Below are positions 691-40,940 of a stretch of 41,813 nucleotides of DNA, piece by piece. The translations under genes were made by a program, and so were the position numbers. How positions within the stretch are numbered: the first letter of the stretch is position 1; the number at the start of each line of letters is the position of its first letter. The notes under the pieces were generated by a model that did not search any database, was not told the origin of the DNA, and saw nothing but the letters and a program-made list of their open reading frames with translations. The DNA is from a virus. The DNA lies in the IMG/VR virus record IMGVR_UViG_3300009157_000006, positions 1 to 41,813 of that record. One strand, given 5' to 3'.

Positions 691-1392
691 ATGTTAAAAA
701 GACTTTTTATTACTTCAATTCTTACATCAGGAATGTGCCTGGCAACTGCACCACTAGAGATAGATAAATCACATTTACAATTGCCATCAGAGGTTAGTAC
801 AGCAAGTATTTTTTTAGATACAGGAACATTTAAGATGTTATTGGAAAATGATGCTGTATATACATTTAGTGTAGAGAATATAGATGCTGACCTACGTCAG
901 ATAGATCCTCTTACTCTATCTTACCGGCTTGGTATGATATGGAATATTGATTGCAATGGCATTAAAGTAGTAAGCGATTGTATTACACCTGAGAAGTTAC
1001 AAGCATTATCACCTAAATACCCACTCTTTATTGGAAATGTACAGAATATAAAATTCTTACTCGAATCTAAACCAGCAGGAGCATACCTTCAGATATACAG
1101 ATTAGATAACTGCGGTTATGGAATACATATTTGTCCTAGAATCAGTGGTGGTGGGTTATTTGATTTAATATGGCGTTATCTTATGGGTAAAAGTGTTAGG
1201 TCTGAAAATGGTGATACCTTACCCACTGATGCTGACATAATAAGAGCAGGTTCAGACAATAACTCTGTTTGGGAAGGAATACTTGCCAAAGAAGCAGCTG
1301 AAGACACCTATGTATGGCGTACTTGGCAGTACATGCAATTATGTGAAGCGGAGGAACATCGGGTGCATGATTCCTCAACAGATCTTGGATGA
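691..1392 (+). CDS. Secreted or periplasmic protein of unknown function (233 aa)
   Basis: The first 20 residues form a typical signal peptide: K-R, a hydrophobic stretch, then a small-residue cleavage region near A-T-A-P. The mature part carries several cysteines (C near residues 89, 97, 141, 148) that could form disulfides after export. I recognise no family. It follows its own promoter at 571-598 and is followed by an intrinsic terminator at 1456-1480, so it may be transcribed alone. A short stretch (L-G-M-I-W followed by I-D) faintly resembles V-G-L-I-W-V-T-D in the secreted protein at 30906-31358. An exported protein in the early region suggests action on the envelope, such as superinfection exclusion, but this is inference. 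Confidence 0.75.
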   Translation: MLKRLFITSILTSGMCLATAPLEIDKSHLQLPSEVSTASIFLDTGTFKMLLENDAVYTFSVENIDADLRQIDPLTLSYRLGMIWNIDCNGIKVVSDCITPEKLQALSPKYPLFIGNVQNIKFLLESKPAGAYLQIYRLDNCGYGIHICPRISGGGLFDLIWRYLMGKSVRSENGDTLPTDADIIRAGSDNNSVWEGILAKEAAEDTYVWRTWQYMQLCEAEEHRVHDSSTDLG

Positions 1393-3786: not shown

Positions 3787-6585
3787 TTAACCTATTAAAT
3801 ATCCCGATACTGTCGTATATGTGCCACCTACTCCTACAGTCTTAGTACCAACACTAGTCTGTAAGCCATATTGAAAATATGCTGTGTCAGCTGCATCCAT
3901 ATCTGCTATAGCTGTAAATGTAATTGTCTGCCTAGCAAGATCATTAGTATAAGATGTAACTGGATTTATTAGTGAATATGTCCTATTACTTGTAACTATA
4001 TTTATTGGATCAACTCTAGTTGTTGGAGGTGTTGGCGCCGTTGGAAGATTAACAACTAATACTGTACATATAAATAAATATAATCCAGTCTGCGGGGCTG
4101 TAAATAAAGCCTTAGTTCCAGCACCACTTCCTCCATAAAAGTCACTTCCGTAGTCATAAACCTCTGTTAATGTTGCAGATGTTCCAAGATTATACAGTGT
4201 TCCATCACCAGTTACGTTACTAGCAGAAACACCCTGAACTGCATGGAAAGCACACGTAGATACAGAACCGTATCTAAGATCTATGTATCCAGCCACACTT
4301 GTATCTATTTCTATTGTTCCATTTGTGGATCTTAATAATCTAAAACTAGGAGGAGTTGTTCCATTACCAGCAAGGACAGAGCCTAATAAAGGATCTTGAC
4401 CTAGGGCTGTTATTGAAGGTTTACCTAATTGACCACTAGCATCAACAAATACTGGAATGCTGTTATCTACATATTTATTATAAACACCAGCAACATAAGT
4501 TTCTATAGAAGTATTAGATACAGAGCCTATTCTTATTTTATAACTTTCTCCGGTAACTGCTGCATCTGTAGATATATAAGTATTTCCTACTCCACTAGTT
4601 AATGTTCCTCCAGCTGTATCTCCAATGGCTACATTATAAGTTCCTGTTGTTAAGTTTGGAAATACATCATAACCTATACCAACATTATGATTAGCAGTAG
4701 TAGCTGCACGAATTGCATGATATCCTACAGCAACATTAGATTCGGCGCTTGTAGAACCTCCAGATGCATTAAGTGTATATAATGCTTCACTACCAATAGC
4801 AACGTTGGTCATACCAACACTAGCTCCACCTGTAAGTGTATACAAAGCATTATTACCTACAGCCACATTCTCGCTACCTGATGTTACAGCCCTTAACGCA
4901 TTTGTTCCTATTCCTACGTTATTTGTACCATACGCTAATGTCAGTGATAAATTTCCAGCATTCTGTCCTAGAAATGTATTGCCAGTACCAATTGCATGCA
5001 TAAACTTAACTGAATTTAAACTCATACCGCCAGCTGTACCTGCTGAATTAGTTGCTGGTAGAGAAATCCAGTCATCTAGGTTGACTACTACGGAATTAGG
5101 TGCTGTTGATGTGTTGATATTTGTGCCACCTATGATATCAATCTCTCCCAATAAAGGTAATGCAGGTGTGCCAACATCAGCCCCTAGCTTAACTATACCT
5201 GATGATCCACCTCCACCTACTGCCACCATATCTAAACTATTTGCTCCTGACGTAAAAATTATGGAAGCGTCACTAGATGTTAATGTTGCCCATACAGGTC
5301 CAGTTCCACCACCTATTAATACCTGGCCATTAGTTCCATTTGATGAACCCAGTTTGCCAAGATTATCTATAGAGACTACTCCGTTTGTAGCAGCTATTGT
5401 ACTACCATAAATACCGGCTACATACGTATCAGTATGATCTGTAGAATTACCTATCCTTATGGTTGATGTATCTAGTGGAGAGCCTTCATTGACTAAATTT
5501 ATGTTGTGAGACTCTGACGTGTAATTTATTCCAGCATTCATTCCTAGTAATAAATTTTCATGTCCATTCACCAAGGCGGCCCCAGACATTGCTCCTAGTG
5601 CTGTATTGCCTCCAATTCCATCAGCTACCGCAGTTAAGCTTCCTACGCCAACCCCTGTATTGTTAGCAGAGTCAGTAAGATCATTAAGAACTCCTGTACC
5701 AAGACCGGTGTTACCAGTTGCAGAAACAGTTATTAGGGTAAAATTTCCTGAGCCTTCACCAACAAAAGTATTATCTAAGCCAAGATTTGTTATAAATCTA
5801 TTAGCGCCAAGTTTTATTATACCCTGAGTCGCACCAGCATTAGTTACAGGCAACGTAAGTATAGGCTCTAGGGTGATTGTAAGGGTATGACCCAAAGCGC
5901 TTGTGGTGATGTTTGTGGCATCTCCTAGTACGGATACCTTATTTAATAAAGGAACGGCTGTGCCTGTATCAGCATCTAGCCCTCCAAATACACCTCCGCC
6001 ACCTCCAATAGACTGAAAGTTAACAGTACCAGGAATAGAACCTGCCGTAATTGTAATAGATCCATCTTCTGATACTGGTGTATAGAACGATGGTGTAGCA
6101 CCTGTATTTCCTAGAAACATCTGTAGATCTGTTCCCTGAGCACCAACTACTAAGCCAACAGCATCAGTCGTTAAGACTGAGGATAATACAGGTGTTAATG
6201 TTAATGAGCTTACGATAGTCACATCATTCTCTAGCCCTACAGTTACTGTGTTACCACTGGAATATGTAGCTATATCGTTAGATCCATAAACATTAAGTAT
6301 TCCACTTACCTGTATAGCAGTGTTGCCATCATCAGTCTTAAAATAATTAGTTCCAGAACCACTTCCAGGATATAATTGTACCCACTTAGGACTAGCAGAT
6401 GGATTCTTATCTATCATCATCCATATTGTTGTTGGAGTAGAAACCATCCATATAGCTCCTAACTCGTATTCAGGAAAATCATTATCTGTTGGATTTCTTT
6501 GCTCTATAATTAGCATAGGCGGCGTTATTGGATCAACGCCAAGATACGCTAAGGGATTTATACCCGATCTTCTTTTAGCTTGCAT
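3787..6585 (-). CDS. Large tail fibre/adhesin with YadA-like repeats and C1q-like tip (932 aa)
   Basis: The N-terminus has a motif often seen at phage fibre starts (Y-E-L-G-A-I-W, later P-K-W-V-Q-L). The body consists of repeated N-x-x-x-G-x-x-A-L and N-V-A-I-G type units, the signature of YadA-like left-handed trimeric adhesin heads, in two blocks separated by beta-rich linkers (each block ends in I-R-I-G followed by T-Y-V-A-G). The last 150 residues look like a C1q/TNF-type jelly roll: A-F-H-A near its start and F-T-A-P-Q-T-G-L-Y-L-F. Such tips bind surface ligands. AGGAG sits six bases before the ATG at 6585. It probably forms a trimeric receptor-binding fibre and shares repeat types with the gene at 11571-13895. 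Confidence 0.8.
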   Translation of the reverse strand: MQAKRRSGINPLAYLGVDPITPPMLIIEQRNPTDNDFPEYELGAIWMVSTPTTIWMMIDKNPSASPKWVQLYPGSGSGTNYFKTDDGNTAIQVSGILNVYGSNDIATYSSGNTVTVGLENDVTIVSSLTLTPVLSSVLTTDAVGLVVGAQGTDLQMFLGNTGATPSFYTPVSEDGSITITAGSIPGTVNFQSIGGGGGVFGGLDADTGTAVPLLNKVSVLGDATNITTSALGHTLTITLEPILTLPVTNAGATQGIIKLGANRFITNLGLDNTFVGEGSGNFTLITVSATGNTGLGTGVLNDLTDSANNTGVGVGSLTAVADGIGGNTALGAMSGAALVNGHENLLLGMNAGINYTSESHNINLVNEGSPLDTSTIRIGNSTDHTDTYVAGIYGSTIAATNGVVSIDNLGKLGSSNGTNGQVLIGGGTGPVWATLTSSDASIIFTSGANSLDMVAVGGGGSSGIVKLGADVGTPALPLLGEIDIIGGTNINTSTAPNSVVVNLDDWISLPATNSAGTAGGMSLNSVKFMHAIGTGNTFLGQNAGNLSLTLAYGTNNVGIGTNALRAVTSGSENVAVGNNALYTLTGGASVGMTNVAIGSEALYTLNASGGSTSAESNVAVGYHAIRAATTANHNVGIGYDVFPNLTTGTYNVAIGDTAGGTLTSGVGNTYISTDAAVTGESYKIRIGSVSNTSIETYVAGVYNKYVDNSIPVFVDASGQLGKPSITALGQDPLLGSVLAGNGTTPPSFRLLRSTNGTIEIDTSVAGYIDLRYGSVSTCAFHAVQGVSASNVTGDGTLYNLGTSATLTEVYDYGSDFYGGSGAGTKALFTAPQTGLYLFICTVLVVNLPTAPTPPTTRVDPINIVTSNRTYSLINPVTSYTNDLARQTITFTAIADMDAADTAYFQYGLQTSVGTKTVGVGGTYTTVSGYLIG

Positions 6586-6601: not shown

Positions 6602-7627
6602 TTAACCGTATATCTTAGCTACTCTAATTGTCTTATTGGTCTCATTGTACATACCCACTGCTAGAAATAATCCCCACTTATCAAATGCTGCGCCTAAACA
6701 TCCCTGTGATGTATAAGTTAGTGTATCAATCTCAGTTAAAGTCTCAGTGGTTCTTGAAAAACTATAATACTTAACATATGCTCCAGACGTGACACTTCCA
6801 CCAATAGCACACCCAACTACGTATCTATCATTAAAAATACCTATATCATATGCAGTAAGTCCTGCATTTATAGTCTGCTTTAAGGTTAATGCTGACCCAG
6901 AAAAGGCATATGTCCTAAAGGTCGTAGATGTAGAGTTAGCATCCGCTGTGAATAAATATGCATTATCAGTAGTCCATGCCATACCAAGAAGATCAGTTGT
7001 TGAACCAGAATTGTAGTAAGCCACTTCCGTTAAGGTATCAGTGCCGTTCCATGAATATACAGCAGTAAAATGTCCTGATTTTTCTGATCCTACTGCTAAA
7101 TAAGTACCATCTGGAGACCAGTTACATGCGTGAGATGTAGCTCCTAAATTAAGCGTACATACTGCTGTTAGAGTATCCGTACCATTCCAAGAGTAAACTA
7201 TTACTGACTGAGTAGAAACACCAGATGATATAGCTAAGAAATTACCATTTGGATGCCAAGATACACAGTATGCAACTGGATTTAAGTTCTTACTTGCTAC
7301 AGCAGACAAAGCTGATCCATTCCATGAATAAACCTGGATTGAATTAGTGGAATAATAATTAGCTACAGCAATAAAATTCCCATTGGGATGCCAAGATACT
7401 CCTATACAAGTTTGTCCAGTGTTTACAGTAGTTATTTCAGCAATAGTATCTTTACCATTCCAAGAAAACATAGCTATCTGCTTAGCTGAACTATTTCCAA
7501 CACAAGCTATATAACTATTATTAGGACTAAAGCGAACCTTATATCCATTTGCACCCTCATTGGCACTTGTGACATCAGTTAAATTGGCATGACGTCTCTT
7601 GCGGCTCAATCCTAGCAAGTTCATCAT
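6602..7627 (-). CDS. Seven-bladed WD40-like beta-propeller protein (341 aa)
   Basis: The protein is almost entirely seven repeats of about 40-45 residues. Each has a W/F-x-P-N-G-x-(F/Y)-(I/L)-A-V core followed by V-Y-S-W-N-G and a T-L-T-x-V strand, with blades clear from about residues 25 to 341. Blades 2-4 are the most regular and 5-7 more diverged. It therefore folds as a single WD40/YVTN-type propeller with no other domain, signal peptide or catalytic motif. It lies between two giant fibre genes and is read with them, so it is probably a virion or fibre-associated binding module. The ATG at 7627 has AGGAG seven bases upstream, inside a 15-bp direct repeat shared with the end of the upstream fibre gene. 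Confidence 0.8.
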   Translation of the reverse strand: MMNLLGLSRKRRHANLTDVTSANEGANGYKVRFSPNNSYIACVGNSSAKQIAMFSWNGKDTIAEITTVNTGQTCIGVSWHPNGNFIAVANYYSTNSIQVYSWNGSALSAVASKNLNPVAYCVSWHPNGNFLAISSGVSTQSVIVYSWNGTDTLTAVCTLNLGATSHACNWSPDGTYLAVGSEKSGHFTAVYSWNGTDTLTEVAYYNSGSTTDLLGMAWTTDNAYLFTADANSTSTTFRTYAFSGSALTLKQTINAGLTAYDIGIFNDRYVVGCAIGGSVTSGAYVKYYSFSRTTETLTEIDTLTYTSQGCLGAAFDKWGLFLAVGMYNETNKTIRVAKIYG

Positions 7628-8175
7628 GCTAGGTCTCCTGAGACTTTACCAGTTCCTCTTAATCCTTTGTTCCAAGGGATTTTGCCTTTATGTACATCGC
7701 TTAATTTCTTTCTTAATTCTATGCTCATCTTTTTTCCTTTTAACCAAGGTTCACCATTTTTTAACAAATTGCACTTTTCTTTTCCATGTAGTCTAGCATG
7801 GCATGAAGTACATAAAGTAATCCCATTAGACATATCAAAACGTAGATTGGGGAAATTATGCCAATCTTTAATGTGATGTGCATGAAGGCGCTTTCTAGAA
7901 AAACATTTAACACATTTATAATTATCACGCTTTTTAATTTTTTCCCGCCAAATTTTTAATTCTATAGATTGCCTACCTAGAACTTCCTTCTTGTTCCATG
8001 GAATATTTCCCTTATTATATTTTCCTAAATTAGGTTTTCCATAATTAGGGGAGTGCTTTAGATAACATCTTTTACAGTTTCCGGTATACCATGGCATACC
8101 AGTTCTCTTTGATATGCCATGCTCATAAAACTCTTCCAAAGGCTTAGACATCTTACATTCTTTACATATTTTCAT
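7624..8175 (-). CDS. NUMOD3/HNH homing endonuclease (183 aa)
   Basis: Residues 4-37 hold a CxxC...CxxC zinc module. NUMOD3-like DNA-binding motifs flank the nuclease (K-G-N-I-P-W-N-K near 55-62 and H-K-G-K-I-P-W-N-K near 162-170). The HNH nuclease spans about 84-131 with C88/C91, the H100-H101 pair, N117, C122/C125 and H130. HNH homing endonucleases cut a target allele and spread their gene by repair. The frame opens at a TTG (8205), but the ATG at 8175 has GGAAG eight bases upstream and is preferred. It sits alone between a fibre gene and the propeller gene. Its last codons (V-S-G-D-L-A) duplicate the fibre's C-terminal end, as expected if it inserted at that junction. Confidence 0.9.
   Translation of the reverse strand: MKICKECKMSKPLEEFYEHGISKRTGMPWYTGNCKRCYLKHSPNYGKPNLGKYNKGNIPWNKKEVLGRQSIELKIWREKIKKRDNYKCVKCFSRKRLHAHHIKDWHNFPNLRFDMSNGITLCTSCHARLHGKEKCNLLKNGEPWLKGKKMSIELRKKLSDVHKGKIPWNKGLRGTGKVSGDLA
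7630..7644. repeat. 15-bp direct repeat, propeller-side copy
   Basis: The plus-strand sequence TAGGTCTCCTGAGAC at 7630-7644 is repeated exactly at 8244-8258. Read leftward it encodes V-S-G-D-L at the end of the endonuclease and supplies the AGGAG ribosome binding site of the propeller gene. The two copies bracket the endonuclease gene. Confidence 0.9.
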
Positions 8176-8237
8176 AATGTATACTTCCGTAAAATATCTT
8201 AGCAAGTTTCATGTAATTTCCCCAGTAATTTATACCT

Positions 8238-11200
8238 CTAACTTAGGTCTCCTGAGACAATCCACTCGTCTGTACCAATCTTCACTAGAGTTGCAGATGA
8301 GTACTGTGTATATAGATTAAGAAGACTTCCTGGAGCCCTTAATGTCACATCACCATCTACAGGTGCTATTGTTGTTACACCTGCACCATATTGTGTTACG
8401 GCTACTATAGTCCCTGTAGCAAACGCTACGGCAGAGTTTTTTGGTACTGTGAGTGTATTGGCTGTTCCTTTGTTCATTATTATAAGTTTTCCAGCATCAC
8501 CTATAACTAGGGCATAAGTATCCGTCTGGGTATTACATGTAGTTGAAGTTGATGAAAGAGTTATAGATCCAGCTCCATTAGCAACAGTTATACCTGTTGA
8601 TGCTGTGAGTGTTGCCAAGACCGGATCTGCACCAGCTGATCCTATTGGCAGTTGGCCATTAGATGCTTCCCCTAGCGGCGTAATTGCTCCAGTGCCAGAA
8701 CCTAACAATATACCATGATCAGTAAGCGTTGAAGCTCCAGTGCCACCATCTGTAACTGCTACATCAGTACCACCAACTCTATATATATATGCAGTTCCAA
8801 TAGTTACATCTGTGTCTAAATCCATAGTTGGGGTATTGTTAGCAGTAAGGGTGGCGAATGTCTTATACGCAGTACCATCTACATCATAAGCCCTTAAAAG
8901 AAATGTATCAGCTGCTGTGGTACCAGTTCTTATAGTACCTGCATTAGGCATTGTTATATCTGCATCTAGATTAATTGTAACTGTAGCTGTACCTGCTACT
9001 GATGTAAGATTAGTCCCACCGGCAATAGTAACAGTAGAACCTGTGGCAGTACCAGAATCTCCGGCTAAGGTAACTATTCCATCAGCAGGATTAGCTTGAA
9101 ATGTAGGGGCTGTACCTGAACCATTTGCAGTAAGAACATATCCAGCTGTTGTACCTCCAGTAGCCACTCCAATGACATTGGCCGCTGAAGCCACTAGGAC
9201 ATCGCCTATGGCAACAGTTGCAGGATAGGTGGCTGTAGTCCACGTAGGATCGCTTGATGTCACACCGGTCAAAATCTGCCCAGTAGATGCTTCCCCTAGC
9301 GATGTAATTGCACCAGTGCCAGAACCTAACAGTACCCCATGATCAGTAAGCGTTGAAGCGCCAGTTCCGCCCTCTGACACTGCTAGATCTGTAGTTAACT
9401 GCAAATCATCAATAATAACTTTTCCTGTTCCTTTTGCTGTAATATTGATATTTATATCAGCGTCTGAACCATCAGCAGATAACGTAGTACCAGAAAGAGT
9501 TACTCCAGCTGCTGCTACATTAGTATCAAATGCAGTTGCATATATTGTAGAAACTGTAGGATTAGCACTCCAAGATGGATCTGCCGAGGTATTCCCAGTT
9601 AATATGGTACCGTCTGTACCAGCCGCTATAACCCCTAGGGCAACACCAGTACCATTACCTACTACCAAACATTTGTCTGTTGTTCCAGCACCCCAGTTAT
9701 CTATGGTATCTAGGGCTGACTGAACATTGGTGTCAGATCCAGACAAGATTCCATTAAAACCAGTTGTATTTGTGACAACTAAATTAGCCTGATTGGTTCC
9801 CCCACCACTGGAGATCGTTGCTCTCAGGGTAGATTTAGCTATTATCGTACTAACTATTGCTGCGGCAGCCTGTCCCCAAATAATAAACCCTAATTGGCAT
9901 AATTCCAAATCAAGCAACTCAGCTGTTGCTTTTGCAATAGTCCCATTAGATATTGCTGTTGTAGCAGCTCCCAAATTATTATATTCGCTTGTGTCCAAAA
10001 CTGCATAATAAATTGGAACAGCTGTGTTTAAATCGTCCTTACTGGCATATAGAGTATAAACACCAAACTTAGAAGCTCCCAATGCAGTAGGTGTTCCAGC
10101 ATTATTGTAATACCCCGCAAAGGTATCAGAAACATTTTGAACCGCCCACTTACCACCAGCAGTTGTATAAAACTTCTTCCATGTAACACTGGCTTCGGTA
10201 GTAATGGTTGTCTCTAGCCCATGATCCTGCAATACATCATCACCAGATATACCAACCTTAACATTAGCAGCGCCGAGAGGAGTTATATTAGCCCCTCCAT
10301 TCTGAACCACTGTTCCAATGATATGATGTTCCACATTAGAAACTGATACCTGATAGTTATATGCATGATTTTCTTTTACTGTGTGTTGAAGTTTAGTAAC
10401 TGGAGTTTCATCGTAAAGGCATTCAAAAAGAACTATATAATCCACAAATAAATCGTCAGTTCTTGTTGAGGTTTTACCTATGGTCCCTGTGGAATCTATA
10501 TAAATGTACCATGTTGCGCCTGACGTCATACCAGATATGTTCTGAGATACCCATGTAATGACCTTGCCACGTATGTAGCCAGTACCACCTACAAGCAATT
10601 GAAATGTCCCTAGGGTAGTATCATCAAAGTATGGTCCAACCGCTGCCCATGAGTAAAAGCCACTCATATCCATACGCAGGATAGTATTAGAATAATTTTC
10701 ACCAGTCTTAACTACGCCAGCAAGACCTTCTACCACAGTTCCTGCTAATCCTTTACTGTTGGCAAAGTTAACCTGATTAAAATTAACAGTTCCAGTGCCT
10801 CCAATTGCTACTACATTAGATGTATTTATATTTACATCACTTAAATTAACTGCCACCGCAGATGTAGTTGTAATAGCAGTTGCTGCTCCAGTTGATATTC
10901 TTGAGTTAGCAATGCTTAAATTAGCTGTAGCGCTAAGAGTTATTGCCCCAGAAAGAACACAACCGCCATCAATTGTAGATATAGCACTACCTGCAAGAGT
11001 AATAGGGCAACCTACAGATGAGTTAAATACGGTTAAAATGCCATTTATTGTCATTGGATTAGCAGTACCCACACCAATAGTATTATTATTCATTACCACT
11101 GTTGCAGTTGCAGTATTTAAAACCAATCCATTTATTGTGCTAGTATCAGAGCAGAATTCAAATGTTATTGCTCCAGTCCAATTTGTAATATTGCATACAT

Positions 11201-27819: not shown

Positions 27820-27830
27820 AATATTTCCTT

Positions 27831-28017
27831 ACACATAAATGTGTTTAGAATAAATTAAACATTCTTGTCTAACTATCTAAGCGGAATGATTTCTTAGGTG
27901 AGCCAGAAAAGGCTCTTGCGATCCCTGGATTTTTCTGTATCTCTACAGCGGTTACTTCCAACCGGGGGGAACGACGCCCATACAGTTCTTATGTTTTTTG
28001 CTAGGACGCGATCCTAG
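27831..28017 (-). promoter_or_regulatory. Hairpin-rich leader of the major capsid mRNA
   Basis: The 322-base gap 27820-28141 holds no gene. Between the promoter and the capsid start at least five hairpins follow each other: 28001-28017 (CTAGGA/TCCTAG), 27949-27964 (CGGTT/AACCG), 27935-27948 (CTGTA/TACAG, 4-base loop), 27900-27915 (GAGCC/GGCTC) and 27831-27844 (ACACAT/ATGTGT), the last ending directly at the AAGGA ribosome binding site. Such a leader may stabilise the abundant capsid mRNA or control its translation. Confidence 0.6.
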
Positions 28018-28034
28018 GCCTTACGCTAATATCT

Positions 28035-28064
28035 ATAATAGATCTTAAGATCTATTAATTACAA
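28035..28064 (-). promoter_or_regulatory. Capsid promoter with a 22-bp palindrome in its spacer
   Basis: Read leftward, TTGTAA (28064-28059) and TATTAT (28040-28035) are separated by 18 bp. A perfect 22-bp palindrome occupies 28036-28057, covering the whole spacer except one base and most of the -10. A dyad between -35 and -10 is the classic layout for MerR-type activators, and it could equally serve a repressor. Confidence 0.65.
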
Positions 28065-28072
28065 GTTTGGAC

Positions 28073-28108
28073 AAAAAAACCGGCTAGGAGTGAATACTAC
28101 CTAACCGG
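28073..28108 (-). terminator. Strong terminator between scaffold and capsid genes
   Basis: Read leftward, CCGGTTAGG (28108-28100) pairs with CCTAGCCGG (28088-28080), nine pairs including one G-U, followed by seven T residues (28079-28073). An A run on the other side (28112-28118) would let it act in both directions. It ends transcription after the scaffold gene, so the capsid gene needs the promoter just downstream. Confidence 0.85.
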
Positions 28109-28141
28109 ATTAAAAAAAGGAGATTAGAATAAAATGAATTT

Positions 28142-29474: not shown

Positions 29475-29533
29475 TTCTTCCTTTTGCTAGTCTACAAGCG
29501 TTTTATTTGATAAATTCCTTATGGACTAGTTCT

Positions 29534-29581
29534 GGGATATACCTTCTTTTCTCAAAACTTGTCTTGTAGTCGGTATATCCC
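29534..29581. repeat. Long-looped 10-bp inverted repeat
   Basis: GGGATATACC (29534-29543) and GGTATATCCC (29572-29581) are perfect arms separated by 28 bases, in the gap between genes ending at 29588 and starting at 29474. As RNA it would form a stem; as DNA it could be a pair of operator half-sites. There is no U run, so it is not a terminator. Confidence 0.65.
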
Positions 29582-29587
29582 ATTTAT

Positions 29588-29764
29588 CTAAAAGTAATTC
29601 AATGGAATCACTCTTTTTGCATCAATTAGATCATCTATACCAGATCTATCACGGTTTAAAGGCATTTCTGAATAAACAGTTGCCTTTTTCATGTTCTCTG
29701 GTTCACCTAGGATCTTATAAGCGATCTTCTTGTATTTATTATTTACTCTAGGCGCTGCTGGCAT
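29588..29764 (-). CDS. Small unknown protein (58 aa)
   Basis: An ATG at 29764 follows AAAGG at seven bases and opens a 58-codon frame ending in TAG at 29588. The product is basic at its start (R-V-N-N-K-Y-K-K-I-A-Y-K) with a charged helix later (D-D-L-I-D-A-K-R-V). No family is recognised. Its ribosome binding site lies in a small hairpin (AGACC/GGTCT), and an AACAC/GTGTT dyad sits just upstream, suggesting regulated translation. It belongs to the leftward string of small genes between portal and scaffold. Confidence 0.6.
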   Translation of the reverse strand: MPAAPRVNNKYKKIAYKILGEPENMKKATVYSEMPLNRDRSGIDDLIDAKRVIPLNYF

Positions 29765-29798
29765 AATTAGACCTTTCTGGTCTTAAACACTTGTGTTT

Positions 29799-35016: not shown

Positions 35017-35436
35017 TTACGTATTCTTAGTTATAAATTCCTTTAATTCTCTCCAGCACTTCCTACCAAAACCCTTCATTAACTTTAACTTAGGATTAAG
35101 CCAAGGATCCTCAGGGTTAATGCTTTCATAAAAAGCCAATAATTCTCCAAAATTCTTAATTCCTGAGTTTATAAGTGGTCTCTTTAATAACTGACTTATA
35201 TCTAAACTCTCTATCGGAGTATCCAGATCAAGTTGAAAAACATAAGAAGCTTTAATTAATGCTCTGCAAGCAATAATTACATCAACATCTGTCTTAGTAG
35301 GATCCTGCAATAACGCTAAAAGCTTTTCCTTACCTTCATCCCACACCTTAGACCTCTTATTTAAATACTCTCTCATCTTACTCAGCGAGTTATACTCACT
35401 TAATTCTCTCAAAAATGGACTATTCTCCACATCCAA
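35017..35436 (-). CDS. Protein with an RNA polymerase alpha-CTD-like domain (139 aa)
   Basis: Residues about 74-136 resemble the C-terminal domain of bacterial RNA polymerase alpha: P-I-E-S-L-D-I-S, L-I-N-S-G-I-K-N-F-G-E-L-L, then M-K-G-F-G-R-K-C-W-R-E-L-K-E-F-I. They match the I-x-x-L-D-L-S, L-x-x-x-x-I-x-T-(V/I)-G-(D/E)-L and N-L-G-K-K-S-L-x-E-I-K elements. By eye, G124 and K126 fall at the DNA-contacting G296 and K298 of E. coli alpha, while R265 appears replaced by Leu with Arg nearby. The N-terminal 70 residues are helical with no match to alpha-NTD. It could modulate host transcription or bind DNA through its helix-hairpin-helix. It lies between the zinc/HTH genes and ssb. Confidence 0.65.
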   Translation of the reverse strand: MDVENSPFLRELSEYNSLSKMREYLNKRSKVWDEGKEKLLALLQDPTKTDVDVIIACRALIKASYVFQLDLDTPIESLDISQLLKRPLINSGIKNFGELLAFYESINPEDPWLNPKLKLMKGFGRKCWRELKEFITKNT

Positions 35437-36317: not shown

Positions 36318-36350
36318 TGACATCTATTTGACATATTTTTGACATATTTA
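36318..36350. repeat. Three tandem 11-bp iterons
   Basis: Three units, each starting TGACAT at 36318, 36329 and 36340, are spaced exactly 11 bp: TGACATCTATT, TGACATATTTT, TGACATATTTA. They occupy the short gap between the terL stop and the zinc/HTH gene. Head-to-tail sites at one helical turn are typical of operator arrays or initiator-binding iterons. Confidence 0.75.
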
Positions 36351-37715
36351 ATACTTATTTAAAGTGTCTTGGAACACTGGATTAATGTTCTGCTGTCTTC
36401 CATAGACCGCTTCCTCATAGGTTCTTCTGAGATCCTGCGCAGATAATCCGCCCTGAGTTCTAGGTAATGCCAGGCATAAGTACCTAAAAGCATCAGCAGC
36501 ATGACTATTAATATCATGTAAAGGATTATCTTTATAAACTTTTCTCTTGTCATCCCATTCCCTTCTATAGCTCTCTAGAGCCCTTATTAAAGAATCACAT
36601 CTTTTCTCATCTATCCATATCTTATTAAAACTCACACGAGCCAACTCAATCCCATCTTCCAGGGGAATGTTAGGTAATACCTGAAAGTTAATGCCCATTC
36701 TACGAGCTAGTTCCAATCTAGAAAGGCCAGTTGATAGCTCTCTAACTTTTATATCATGTGGTGCAAAGTGTGGATTTGCGCCTCCCCAGACATACGGCTT
36801 ATCTTTTATTAGCTTTGCATAATGATCCAGTCCTTTATCACAGTCCTCAATCATATCTATAACACGCACAACATTGCCCACAGTTTGCCAAATAAGAATT
36901 ACAGTCTTATCATGCACCCCAAGATCCCAAGCGCTGTAGCACTTAAATTGTGGCTCCCATGGCACTATACCTATCTGACCATTAAGGCGAGCCTTGTCTA
37001 AGTAGCGACCATAATAACTTCCAACTTGTCCTGCTGTATAAGAGCAAAAATACTCTTGCTGGATCATATCCTCAGAAAGCGTCTTGCGCTCACTGTTGAT
37101 TTCATCCATGGTTATTACACCTGTATCTAATACAGTCTTAGTACTACAGAACCAATCGGACGAATTCTTTGCTATCTCATGCATCTCAAAAGCATGATTG
37201 CGTCCTCTAGGTGTGGTTATAAAGAGTGCAAACCCTTGATTGTATAGAAGAGCTGGACGTATAAAGTCATATGCTGATGGCTCTGCAAGCGCCCATTCTG
37301 AAAATACTACTCCTTGAGGGTTAGTTCCAACAAGGGATTGGGGAGCAGTATCAGACCCTACTAGCTGTATAAGTGATCCATTAACCAGCGTGATCTTCAT
37401 TTCCTGGCCATTCTTGGATGCTATTAACTCAGGTGGTATAAAATCTAAAAACTTTTGTCCATTAGATAAGATACCATCCCATATAACTTTGCGTGCATGT
37501 GAGTAGGTAGGCAAAGCATAGAAATATACTCCAACTTTTTTTATAGCAGCCCTTATTACTAGGTTGAATGCTACCACATCTTTGCCACTTCTGCGGTGCC
37601 ATAAGCAGTATATCTTTTTGTAGCCGGCATTCTCTAAGGCATCAATGACTGGGAGCTGGTATGTCCTAGGGACAAAGCGTCTAAGATGCAGTTGAGTATT
37701 TAGAGCAACATTCAT
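36348..37715 (-). CDS. terL: Terminase large subunit (455 aa)
   Basis: TerL is the packaging motor: an N-terminal ATPase and a C-terminal RNase H-like nuclease. Visible are a Walker A variant H-R-R-S-G-K-D-V (40-47), Walker B V-V-F-S-E-W (137-141), coupling motif T-T-P (167-169), and nuclease acidic residues at W-D264-L-G, V-I-D287 and the late H-D-I-N-S-H-A-A-D409-A-F. The length of 455 fits the family. A terminator and promoter separate it from the putative terS upstream, so its expression can differ. The ATG at 37715 has only a weak purine-rich site. Confidence 0.95.
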   Translation of the reverse strand: MNVALNTQLHLRRFVPRTYQLPVIDALENAGYKKIYCLWHRRSGKDVVAFNLVIRAAIKKVGVYFYALPTYSHARKVIWDGILSNGQKFLDFIPPELIASKNGQEMKITLVNGSLIQLVGSDTAPQSLVGTNPQGVVFSEWALAEPSAYDFIRPALLYNQGFALFITTPRGRNHAFEMHEIAKNSSDWFCSTKTVLDTGVITMDEINSERKTLSEDMIQQEYFCSYTAGQVGSYYGRYLDKARLNGQIGIVPWEPQFKCYSAWDLGVHDKTVILIWQTVGNVVRVIDMIEDCDKGLDHYAKLIKDKPYVWGGANPHFAPHDIKVRELSTGLSRLELARRMGINFQVLPNIPLEDGIELARVSFNKIWIDEKRCDSLIRALESYRREWDDKRKVYKDNPLHDINSHAADAFRYLCLALPRTQGGLSAQDLRRTYEEAVYGRQQNINPVFQDTLNKY

Positions 37716-37759
37716 TACTATTCTCTTCTCTCTATTTTTACTTGATTTCTACCGCCAAT

Positions 37760-37806
37760 TTTATACCATTATAATCTCCTAGGGTTCAATAAATTACCTA
37801 GGAGAT
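37760..37806 (-). promoter_or_regulatory. terL promoter with inverted-repeat operator
   Basis: Read leftward, TTGAAC (37789-37784) and TATAAA (37765-37760) are 18 bp apart; a TATAAT (37773-37768) lies between. A perfect 10-bp inverted repeat (ATCTCCTAGG 37774-37783, CCTAGGAGAT 37797-37806) flanks the -35, its left arm lying within the spacer. The arrangement implies regulated transcription of terL and echoes the capsid promoter, which has a dyad in its spacer. Confidence 0.6.
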
Positions 37807-37811
37807 ACAAC

Positions 37812-37843
37812 AAAAACTCCCTTGGTTTGTGGCTGAGGGAGTT
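37812..37843 (-). terminator. Terminator between terS and terL
   Basis: Read leftward, AACTCCCT (37843-37836) pairs perfectly with AGGGAGTT (37822-37815), followed by TTT and G. It lies right after the stop of the putative terS gene (37847), uncoupling terS from terL. Confidence 0.75.
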
Positions 37844-37846
37844 AAT

Positions 37847-38659
37847 CTAACTCTTCTTATCCTTAGCCAACTTCTCTCTCACTTCCTCTGTTGGCAATAC
37901 AGGTGTAGTCATATCAAGCATCAAAGCCTTAAAGTCTACACCCGTTGCCTCTGCTTGCTTAACCTTAGCTGCCTCTCTCCTCTCCTGCTCTTCCCTCCAA
38001 TTTGGATCATATTGACCCATGGTAAACATGCCAACTGTTGGATTCCATTTGCCCTCGAGCATATTCCTCTCCCTAATATCCCCAAGGGCCTGGTTGGCAT
38101 ATTTTAAAGCCGCGTCCAAAATCTCATATTTTTTAGAAATCTTATGAAAATCCCTAAAGAAAATACCCTTTTCCTTAAAAAACTCTGTAACTTTGATTGG
38201 CTGTAGCTCTTCAGGCCCCCTAGGCTTATTGATCCATTCTACTAACTCTTTAGCAACTCTTTCAGCCCAATTTGCTGTGACTATCTTGCGTGAAAAAGTC
38301 TGTGTATCCAGATAACTATCTATATCAGATACTATACCTGCTCCCTTTGCCAGCTCTTTCCTTGCTAACTTTTCCTCAATAATAGCCCCTTCTTCCTCTG
38401 AATGTTGGGGAAGACCTTCTTTTCTACGCTCTATATTAACATATTCTACAGCGGTTGATCTCTCAGAAGCCATAGAACTTCTTTTAATAAACTTTCTATC
38501 TTTGGGTGTAAGTTTATCTTTAGACTCCAATTCCTTCATCTTATCTACCTGTCTCTCTTTATACCTTTTATTTAACTCAAAGCCTGTGATCAATGGAGGA
38601 TGTTTAACTGCAGAACGTCTTACTAAGTCTAAAATGCCTTCGCTTAGACCATTATTCAT
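37847..38659 (-). CDS. Putative terminase small subunit (270 aa)
   Basis: The C-terminal half (K-Y-E-I-L-D-A-A-L-K-Y-A-N-Q-A-L-G-D, then M-L-E-G-K-W-N-P and M-G-Q-Y-D-P-N-W-R-E-E) resembles small terminases I recall from gut podoviruses, where a helix pair ends with a Y-D-P-x-W motif. The N-terminal half is charged and helical and could carry the DNA-binding part. Position just upstream of terL supports the call. TTAGGAG lies upstream, and its start overlaps the end of rusA by eight bases. Small terminases recognise the packaging site, often within or near this gene. Confidence 0.65.
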   Translation of the reverse strand: MNNGLSEGILDLVRRSAVKHPPLITGFELNKRYKERQVDKMKELESKDKLTPKDRKFIKRSSMASERSTAVEYVNIERRKEGLPQHSEEEGAIIEEKLARKELAKGAGIVSDIDSYLDTQTFSRKIVTANWAERVAKELVEWINKPRGPEELQPIKVTEFFKEKGIFFRDFHKISKKYEILDAALKYANQALGDIRERNMLEGKWNPTVGMFTMGQYDPNWREEQERREAAKVKQAEATGVDFKALMLDMTTPVLPTEEVREKLAKDKKS

Positions 38660-39053
38660 CCAAATCTCCTATTTCACTAAAGACCAAAAGAGTTCCCGGA
38701 CCTTCCTGCCGATACTGTTTCTCTGCAACAATACGGCATATCTGCCTGTCATTCCCAAAACAGATATTGTCCTGACATAAATCCAAATAAAACTTCAATA
38801 GATTATCTAAGTCACTTAAATTACAGCAGTAATCAAAGTCTTTAATCTCTCTAGATTTTGGCTTTTGGAAGTAAAATGTTGCGTTGAGTTCAATCTTTCC
38901 CTCTAGTGGCAACTGATTGCCTTTGTAATGTAATATAATTGAACCTAATTGATTTTTAATACGTCTCTGAGTGTCATAACGTACAGATCGGCATTGCCCA
39001 GGCCTAGCCCATGAGATTGGCTTGCCTGGTATATAGATATTTAGCTTTCTCAC
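38652..39053 (-). CDS. rusA: RusA-like Holliday junction resolvase (133 aa)
   Basis: RusA-family enzymes are dimers that cut four-way junctions using Asp residues. Here S-D81-L-D83-N-L-L-K-F-Y-L-D91 and G-N-D102-R-Q-I match the D-x-D-N-L-x-K-x-x-x-D and D-D-x-Q-I elements, and I-P-G-K-P-I-S-W-A-R-P near the start matches the family's first strand. The length is about that of the family. The GTG start has AAGGAG upstream. It works naturally with the ERF proteins and SSB, and could also trim branched DNA before packaging, given the adjacent terminase genes. Confidence 0.9.
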   Translation of the reverse strand: MRKLNIYIPGKPISWARPGQCRSVRYDTQRRIKNQLGSIILHYKGNQLPLEGKIELNATFYFQKPKSREIKDFDYCCNLSDLDNLLKFYLDLCQDNICFGNDRQICRIVAEKQYRQEGPGTLLVFSEIGDLDE

Positions 39054-39329
39054 TCTCTCTCCTTAGCTTATGCTTCCTATCTTGAAGATAGATTAGCACT
39101 ATTTTTTCTAAAGCGTTCCTTTTACCCAAAAAAATAGTAAACTTCTTTTGTATTCTATTTTACGTCTCCCTATTCAGGAGAGACCTAAAATCACCTCAGG
39201 GGAGAGAAAAGGGATAGAATCCCTAACTCTTCTCCCCACATAACTTTGAAATTATGACATATAGAAACAGCCTGGGGTGAAGATGTGTAGTTATTTTAGT
39301 TGCAAGAATTTTTATGTTTCCCTGGGCTT

Positions 39330-39362
39330 TTAAGCTCTTAAATAGGCGGTATAAGCCAGCAT
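39330..39362 (-). other. Possible 10-codon leader peptide within hairpin C
   Basis: Read leftward, AAAGGAG (39374-39368) is five bases before ATG (39362-39360), which opens M-L-A-Y-T-A-Y-L-R-A and a TAA at 39332-39330. The peptide covers one arm of hairpin C, so a ribosome translating it would melt that stem, as in attenuators. Ten codons alone is weak evidence; the perfect ribosome binding site is the main support. Confidence 0.35.
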
Positions 39363-39563
39363 CCGTTCTCCTTTACTCACAGACACTGAATGTCAAAACC
39401 AGGCTCCAGCTTATACCGCCGCATCAGTTAGCTTCATTTACTACGATTGATAGAGGGCCTTCTTCTTCCTTTTCCCCCCCTGCCCTCTATCAATCGCCAC
39501 TAGACCCCGTAATACTTTTTGCTTTCTGTATTAGCGCTGTGCTATTGTTAGTTATTTATTAAT

Positions 39564-39597
39564 AAAAAAGGGCCAGATACTTTCACATATCTAACCC
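39564..39597 (-). terminator. Terminator after the initiator operon
   Basis: Read leftward, GGGTTAGATA (39597-39588) pairs with TATCTGGCCC (39579-39570), ten pairs with two G-U wobbles, followed by TTTTTT (39569-39564). The wobbles form only in the leftward RNA, confirming direction. It ends the unit containing the initiator and the 71-residue ORF. Confidence 0.9.
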
Positions 39598-39631
39598 TAT
39601 GAATAGGAATTATTTGTAAGTCTATTCTAAT

Positions 39632-39847
39632 TTATTTCTGCCATGGTAATTCCCCATTATCTTTTTGGTATTGAGTTATTCTCCATAGATCTCTTATTTG
39701 GTCTCCTGCTTGCTCATAGAATATTTCTTTTCTATCTTTATGGCATTCATGTAAAAAATCAATACAACAGAATAATTTCTTTACTTTCTCAGCCCTTGTA
39801 CGTGGTGTAGGAGGAATAGCTGGTAGGTATTTGCTTTTATTATACAC
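39632..39847 (-). CDS. Small protein downstream of the initiator (71 aa)
   Basis: The ATG at 39847 overlaps the end of the initiator gene by eight bases, and the frame closes just before a strong terminator, so the two form an operon. The product is basic at the start (P-P-T-P-R-T-R-A-E-K-V-K-K), has three Cys (C-C-I-D-F-L-H-E-C-H) that might bind metal, and a C-terminal helix. No family is recognised. A replication accessory protein is plausible by context. Confidence 0.6.
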   Translation of the reverse strand: MYNKSKYLPAIPPTPRTRAEKVKKLFCCIDFLHECHKDRKEIFYEQAGDQIRDLWRITQYQKDNGELPWQK

Positions 39848-40940
39848 TCAATGCAAATTGATGTTTTTTAACATGTCTAGATTTAGATAAAGCTGCTTCC
39901 AATTGGTTTTTTTCTTGGACTAATGCAGCTTGGTTGGCTTCCAATTGGTTTATTTTCTTATCTAAAATTGACATTTGCTCTAGCAATAGCTTCTCTTTGG
40001 CCTCCAAGGCCTCTCTTACGGCCCCCTTGCTGAATATCTTATTACATGAAATTGGGGCCAAATCGCCAACGATTATTGCCTTCTGATGTAATATTTCTTT
40101 TTTGGATATTCCATCCTGTGAGTTTCTTAACAAGTCTTCTACTACGGCTAGTCTTTGAATCATATTGCCTTGAGTAAACTCACTCTCTCTTTTTTCTGAC
40201 TCAGCCCATAGTTGTGATACATTGATTCCAAACGGTTGTTGAGACTTAGGGACATAGACACACTCCGGCTCATATGGCTCTGGAGACTTAGGATGTTCTA
40301 TATATCCTATGGTTTTCATAATACTACTCGATTTTTGGGAAATAAAATGGCATGGTCTGTCTACCAAGTCTTTGAGTTCCCCTAAGATTTTATTTATTTT
40401 CTCTTTTTGGTTTTTTTTAAAATTATAAGAGAGTTCAAAGAAATAGAACTTCTTATCCCCTAGGTAAGATTTTAATTTATAATAATAACCTTTAGTTTTA
40501 ATATAAAGGTGATCACTTATTTCATGTAATTTCTGGAAGCGTTTTGACAGCTCATTCATGAATGCTATTCCAGCTTCAGTAAAGAAAATATAATTCAAGG
40601 TATAGCGTAGTGAATGCTTTCCATGAGCTTTTGTTGTAAATGCCCCTAGGGCCTCCAAATCTCTTCTTGCCCTACGGCATGTTATAACAGGCATACCAGT
40701 AAGTTTAGACATATATGGAAAAGACATAGTAACCACACGGCCCTTAACTCTGCGGCATCCCCATAAGGCTTTAAGGAACTTTACCGCCCTGCTTGGTAGA
40801 CCCTTGAGTGGATCTAGAAATAGATCTGATTTTTGATCTTTCTGTTGACTTTTGGCTTGGGTTACTTTAGATTGTGTTTTCATCTTTTTTATCATCTCAG
40901 GCAGGTTTTTCTCTTTAGTAAGAGGCTTATTAACGCACAA
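39840..40940 (-). CDS. Winged-helix replication initiator candidate (up to 366 aa)
   Basis: Residues about 48-120 form a winged helix as in plasmid Rep and phage replisome-organiser proteins: L-P-S-R-A-V-K-F-L-K-A-L-W, M-S-F-P-Y-M-S-K-L-T-G-M-P-V-I-T-C-R-R-A-R-R-D-L-E-A-L-G-A, and a wing ending H-S-L-R-Y-T-L-N-Y-I-F-F. The middle is aromatic and basic, and residues 315-355 form a coiled coil. No polymerase or helicase motif is seen. It would recognise an origin and recruit host machinery. The frame opens at TTG 40940; ATGs at 40895 or 40883 are alternatives, and none has a good ribosome binding site. Confidence 0.6.
   Translation of the reverse strand: MCVNKPLTKEKNLPEMIKKMKTQSKVTQAKSQQKDQKSDLFLDPLKGLPSRAVKFLKALWGCRRVKGRVVTMSFPYMSKLTGMPVITCRRARRDLEALGAFTTKAHGKHSLRYTLNYIFFTEAGIAFMNELSKRFQKLHEISDHLYIKTKGYYYKLKSYLGDKKFYFFELSYNFKKNQKEKINKILGELKDLVDRPCHFISQKSSSIMKTIGYIEHPKSPEPYEPECVYVPKSQQPFGINVSQLWAESEKRESEFTQGNMIQRLAVVEDLLRNSQDGISKKEILHQKAIIVGDLAPISCNKIFSKGAVREALEAKEKLLLEQMSILDKKINQLEANQAALVQEKNQLEAALSKSRHVKKHQFALSV

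Follow-up and report, generated by a model that had tools for sequence, protein, structure and literature searches.

The 41,813-base virus record of an uncultured phage analysed here (the window) contains a cluster of hairpins in a gene-free gap in front of rusA, which we regard as real, significant and, judging from the relatives compared, lineage-specific. The cluster is located at an operon boundary and is plausibly an ordinary regulatory leader; it does not amount to the demonstration of a new kind of RNA. Our preferred, though tentative, reading is that the gap forms the junction between the early and the late operon, where an intrinsic terminator would precede the structured leader of a rusA-terS-terL transcript on the minus strand. 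The observations on which this reading is based are the stems themselves, the order of the genes, a site resembling a terminator, and a folded but sequence-unrelated gap that sister phages have in the corresponding position.

An earlier note had described a gene-free stretch at 39160-39533 upstream of rusA, terS and terL. The list of open reading frames bears this out and widens it to 578 bases (39054-39631), bounded by a 71-aa ORF and rusA. Although an 82-aa ORF on the plus strand (39314-39562) spans part of the gap, we kept the label gene-free because this ORF has neither a Shine-Dalgarno-plus-start match nor a Pfam family. The flanking genes, from the MerR-type HTH genes through the structural genes, are all on the minus strand. 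Upstream of the gap lie two MerR-type HTH proteins, a 366-aa ORF (39840-40940) and the 71-aa ORF (39632-39847), which matched no family, while rusA, a terS-like gene, terL and the structural genes follow downstream. The first gene past the gap, rusA (38652-39053; PF05866, E 3.1e-13), has a GTG start with AAGGAG upstream. The terS-like gene (37847-38659) returned no match in family searches and was assigned by position, being a homologue of the gene that precedes terL in the sister phage L002 (54% identity to L002/L004), and terL (36348-37715) matched the phrog_2 terminase large subunit with E 2.4e-30. The 366-aa ORF, without a family match, occupies the position held by O-like initiator genes in the relatives L010 and L008, and includes two 19-nt repeats spaced 42 nt that look like a coiled-coil coding repeat. 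Single-sequence structure predictions of this ORF and of a 139-aa ORF further downstream (35017-35436, minus strand) were of too poor quality for use. The C-terminal half of the latter shows weak similarity to the RNA polymerase alpha C-terminal domain (PF03118, E 2.9e-4, narrowly missing the cut-off), and the ORF has no homologue among the relatives compared; such a phage-encoded alpha-CTD-like protein could matter to late transcription.

The first 123 bases of the window are identical to its last 123. As a MEGAHIT k-mer list (23...123) used with IMG-annotated data tops out at 123 (PMC9302102), a circular assembly graph is the most likely source of this overlap, not true terminal repeats, and the contig ends are uninformative about a physical end at the gap. 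Two separate genes for Erf-type single-strand annealing proteins are encoded on the plus strand of this one small phage, at 60-569 and 2145-2951 (PF04404, E 3e-6 and 2e-6). Genome contigs searched with a terL profile yielded nothing, and a separate search gave one 50% match in a Methylococcaceae MAG contig, on which grounds we assign no host.

Inspection of the gap recovered the perfect 15-bp arms at 39444-39458/39482-39496 with their 23-nt loop and the perfect 12-bp arms at 39345-39356/39409-39420 with a 52-nt loop, both as previously described. The loop at 39459-39481 is wholly pyrimidine on the plus strand, again as described, and is part of a 24-base pyrimidine run (39458-39481), one of five runs of at least 18 in the genome. 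The larger of the two structures by arm length, hairpin A (39443-39497, 55 nt), gains a sixteenth pair in minus-strand RNA through one G-U, where its loop is all purine, and has folding energies of -23.7 on the plus and -26.3 on the minus strand. Hairpin B (39345-39420, 76 nt) extends from 12 perfect bp to 15 in minus-strand RNA with two G-U pairs and encloses a 52-nt apical region (-23.6 on the plus, -31.4 on the minus strand); together with the 22-nt linker, A and B span 153 nt. A further stem at 39269-39277/39320-39328 (39269-39328, -17.7) comprises 9 bp including two G-U pairs on the plus strand and, as the earlier note had stated, pairs fully only in plus-strand RNA. The series is completed by the nested, G+C-rich hairpin C (39199-39237; -19.8 on the plus, -21.4 on the minus strand) and by hairpin D (39157-39191) with the stems ATTTTA/TAAAAT and GTCTC/GAGAC. 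A dispersed repeat or mobile element was ruled out, since the arms are unique in the genome. We also dropped, by eye, a CsrA/RsmA-type reading of GGA-containing loops, as the purine-rich minus strand yields many GGA triplets regardless.

In five dinucleotide shuffles of the whole window (loop up to 80), perfect inverted repeats stayed at or below 11 bp, whereas the window holds perfect inverted repeats of 12 and 15 bp, both inside the gap. The 15-bp arm exceeds chance for this genome; the 12-bp arm by itself, extrapolating from these five shuffles, would not be significant genome-wide. Folding of the whole gap gave z values against shuffles of -5.6 (plus) and -4.9 (minus), with -5.1 and -3.5 for 39160-39533 and the strongest signal in 39330-39500 (-7.8 and -6.9), while 39160-39340 was weakly significant with z about -2. 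Folded as DNA, the minus strand of 39330-39500 reached z -6.0. For comparison, 16 coding controls mostly fell between +2 and -3, and in a coarse genome scan the gap accounted for three of the six 170-base windows with the strongest structure. These tests, together with the folded gap that the sister phages L002 and L004 have in the corresponding position, support the earlier assessment that the structure is probably not incidental. The most structured segment of the coarse scan was 8076-8245 on the minus strand, overlapping the region of a free-standing HNH/NUMOD3 endonuclease-like ORF (7624-8205, minus strand) amid large tail-type genes. Other intergenic gaps of the phage are folded as well, at 29475-29783, 27820-28141, 1393-1702 and 37716-37846; the first of these (z -7.8 minus, -3.8 plus) contains an 11-bp hairpin (29533-29582) and partly overlaps a possible 58-aa ORF. 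The gap in front of rusA is the densest spacer by perfect arms, not the sole folded one.

Just downstream of the 71-aa ORF, at 39598-39569 on the minus strand, we located an intrinsic-terminator-like hairpin of 12 bp (4 G-C, 3 G-U; -16.0 kcal/mol) followed by TTTTTATTAA, i.e. a G+C-containing hairpin with a U-run immediately after it. As the scan returned three such sites in the region versus 2.1 in shuffles, the weight given to this terminator rests on its position after the end of a gene. This hairpin with its U-rich tail and the uniformly minus-strand neighbours led us to the junction reading. Transcription of the upstream genes would stop at 39598-39569, and the remainder of the gap (about 39565-39054) would constitute a structured 5' leader or an intercistronic spacer of the rusA-terS-terL messenger. 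We infer that the gap is transcribed from the minus strand and that the hairpins may act in cis on this messenger, slowing its decay or setting the polymerase or ribosome traffic that reaches rusA and the packaging genes, with effects on decay, read-through and translation.

Such an arrangement resembles phage late operons in which a terminator-like hairpin with a U-rich tail closes the upstream genes and a long, folded, untranslated stretch precedes the genes for packaging and structure, which share its strand; it differs in that no late promoter was recognised here, the sequence is unique to this phage, and transcription is putative. The put RNA of HK022 suppresses terminators further along the transcript via the zinc-binding domain of the polymerase beta' subunit; if functional, the gap would be like it in acting in cis, through two hairpins of a phage transcript, and in operating without a dedicated protein. 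However, put comprises about 70 nt with two stem-loops joined at one bifurcation point and lies downstream of early promoters (PMC9378689), whereas A and B here are separated by their linker, are considerably longer in total, and precede late genes. A terminator between early and late genes is likewise found in Q-type late antitermination of lambda and 21, which needs a Q-binding element and a -10-like pause embedded in the late promoter (PMC6606751); the gap has no sigma-70-type promoter-like site at the scan threshold (a type that may not be the host's), and no Q-like family was matched among the scanned window proteins. Long hairpins in the spacer of a polycistronic phage operon also recall RNase III processing sites, for which the double-stranded minimum is about 22 nt (PMC5371410), but the longest continuous helices in the gap measure 16 and 15 bp. 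Rfam searches of the whole window gave no family at gathering score and nothing credible at E up to 10, and neither a tRNA nor a tmRNA was found.

A TerL search yielded 80 viral loci, the nearest of which (L002-L005) are 77-79% identical, with TerS proteins 54-58% identical; RusA and the 366-aa ORF, used as IMG/VR queries, returned no relative. In L002 and L004, a gap of 320 and 305 nt, respectively, lies directly before rusA, without detectable sequence similarity to the gap of the window, and the L002 gap folds with z -3.8 in sense and -4.6 in antisense orientation. A folded gap before rusA that shares no sequence fits the view that structure, not sequence, is kept. Part of the structure of the L002 gap is due to 15-nt palindromic tandem units; no obvious terminator was seen in this gap, and an Rfam search of it gave nothing credible. 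Some 30 relatives at greater distance usually have rusA overlapping the preceding same-strand ORF or at most about 120 nt from it (33 nt in L010, 35 nt in L006, -1 in L014), with larger distances in a few (L019, L024, L039, L045). Since rusA abuts the preceding gene in most of them, the structured gap appears to be specific to the lineage of the window and L002, probably inserted or grown between replication-type genes and rusA. Searches with the gap sequence against collections of phages, plasmids and viral contigs, and against the records of 33 relatives, returned no homologue, only short matches at chance level. Several observations speak against the junction reading: a promoter-like site on the minus strand of the gap is absent at the scan threshold, L002 has no obvious terminator and owes part of its fold to short palindromic repeats, most relatives have no gap, and L002 folds slightly better in antisense.

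Two further features of the sister phages were recorded. Within the L002 terL ORF (8001-10379), over 300 residues are inserted in frame, a probable intein according to weak matches to Hint_2 (E 7.3e-5) and Intein_splicing (E 2.1e-4), both below Pfam cut-offs. The gene immediately preceding the L002 folded gap (5277-6062) encodes a protein weakly similar to that of window positions 691-1392 on the plus strand (22%, pairwise E 4e-4), both with signal-peptide-like N-termini and no family.

The strongest rival, which we nevertheless consider rather unlikely, is a neutral or selfish build-up, in which palindromes pile up in the non-coding spacers of this phage clade, the gap being the densest such spacer and having no dedicated role beyond the terminator. 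This would account for the other strongly folded spacers of the phage, for a gap sequence that is unconserved and absent from most relatives, and for the palindromic units of L002 and L004, which are located in spacers and even inside coding sequence. These 15-nt self-palindromic tandem units (e.g. AAGGACACGAGTGTC, AAGACACTTGTGTCT, TATCTAAGATACTTG; L002 5153-5231, 5349-5381, 6311-6360 and 6578-6650, L004 8264-8331) also lie within rusA and two further genes, where they repeat in frame with five codons each, and are absent from the window. The arms in the window, however, are not repeats, and without selection 15 perfect base pairs around a 23-nt loop would be expected to erode fast; the perfection of the two unique arms speaks against this rival.

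Among the candidate roles proposed in the earlier note, these data agree best with a leader or an antitermination-type element, whereas a terminase site is disfavoured, as relatives sharing the rusA/terS-like/terL order lack the gap, and an origin is left without iterons. A DNA-level element neighbouring a replication-type gene, be it a replication origin or a single-strand initiation site, is improbable in our assessment. The place of the 366-aa ORF, where L008 and L010 have O-like initiators, the good folding of the hairpins as single-stranded DNA and the A+T-rich flanks of the gap (GC 0.30-0.31) would suit it. However, the lambda origin lies within O, iteron-like direct repeats are absent from the gap, direct repeats were not found in the corresponding genes of L008, L010 and L002, and L010 and L006 have no gap between the corresponding gene and rusA. 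Moreover, GC skew tracks gene strand without a switch at the gap, and the 366-aa ORF bears no initiator signature of its own.

The earlier note had also seen a hint of a plus-strand RNA, here read as a phage small RNA antisense to the operon direction, which we rate as slightly less probable still. The stem pairing fully only on the plus strand and the somewhat stronger plus-strand z of 39160-39533, with a strand energy asymmetry of z -2.1, agree with it, but the inference was not supported on closer analysis. Pairs that form as G-U only in minus-strand RNA are at least as many (three in the terminator-like hairpin, two extending the 12-bp stem to 15 bp, one extending the 15-bp stem to 16), and the folding of A, B and C is more favourable as minus than as plus RNA. 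The asymmetry is weak and vanishes when 39160-39340 (z -0.7) and 39330-39500 (z -0.5) are taken separately; in addition, the gap scan gave no promoter-like or terminator-like site on the plus strand, and Rfam no match. Sequence alone leaves the strand undecided; the order of the genes and the terminator-like hairpin speak for minus.

A more elaborate version, in which an RNA switch gates rusA-terS-terL through folding, translation or read-through without a dedicated protein, appears quite improbable. It would combine two elements, the first being a pairing of the loop A purines with the 3' arm of hairpin C over 13 contiguous pairs in minus-strand RNA (two G-U), which was reached in 2 of 300 shuffles, a post hoc count for pairing between low-complexity tracts. 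The second is a possible 10-codon leader ORF on the minus strand (39330-39362; ATG CTG GCT TAT ACC GCC TAT TTA AGA GCT TAA) with AAGGAG upstream, whose codons 2-6 form the 3' arm of hairpin B; a leader ORF with Shine-Dalgarno is not above chance here, with one Shine-Dalgarno/start match versus 1.6 in shuffles. Finally, a terminase-recognised packaging site (pac or cos) is very unlikely, although the gap lies some 400 bp ahead of the terS-like gene, as rusA intervenes between gap and terS, relatives that carry rusA and a terL of the same family are gapless (L010, 33 nt before rusA), L002 with a TerS 54% identical has an unrelated gap sequence, so that no site is kept with its terminase in relatives, and the 123-bp end overlap, equal to the top k-mer of that MEGAHIT list, is uninformative about a physical end at this place.

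If the gap is a late-operon leader, as the junction reading proposes, it would mark where and how this uncultured phage group passes from its early to its packaging genes. It would also represent the use of RNA structure at a place where relatives simply abut their genes, and offer a compact RNA for tests of read-through or stability control. If instead the hairpins arose only because palindromes accumulate, they would serve as a warning that in phages of this kind a strong folding energy alone is no evidence of a functional RNA.
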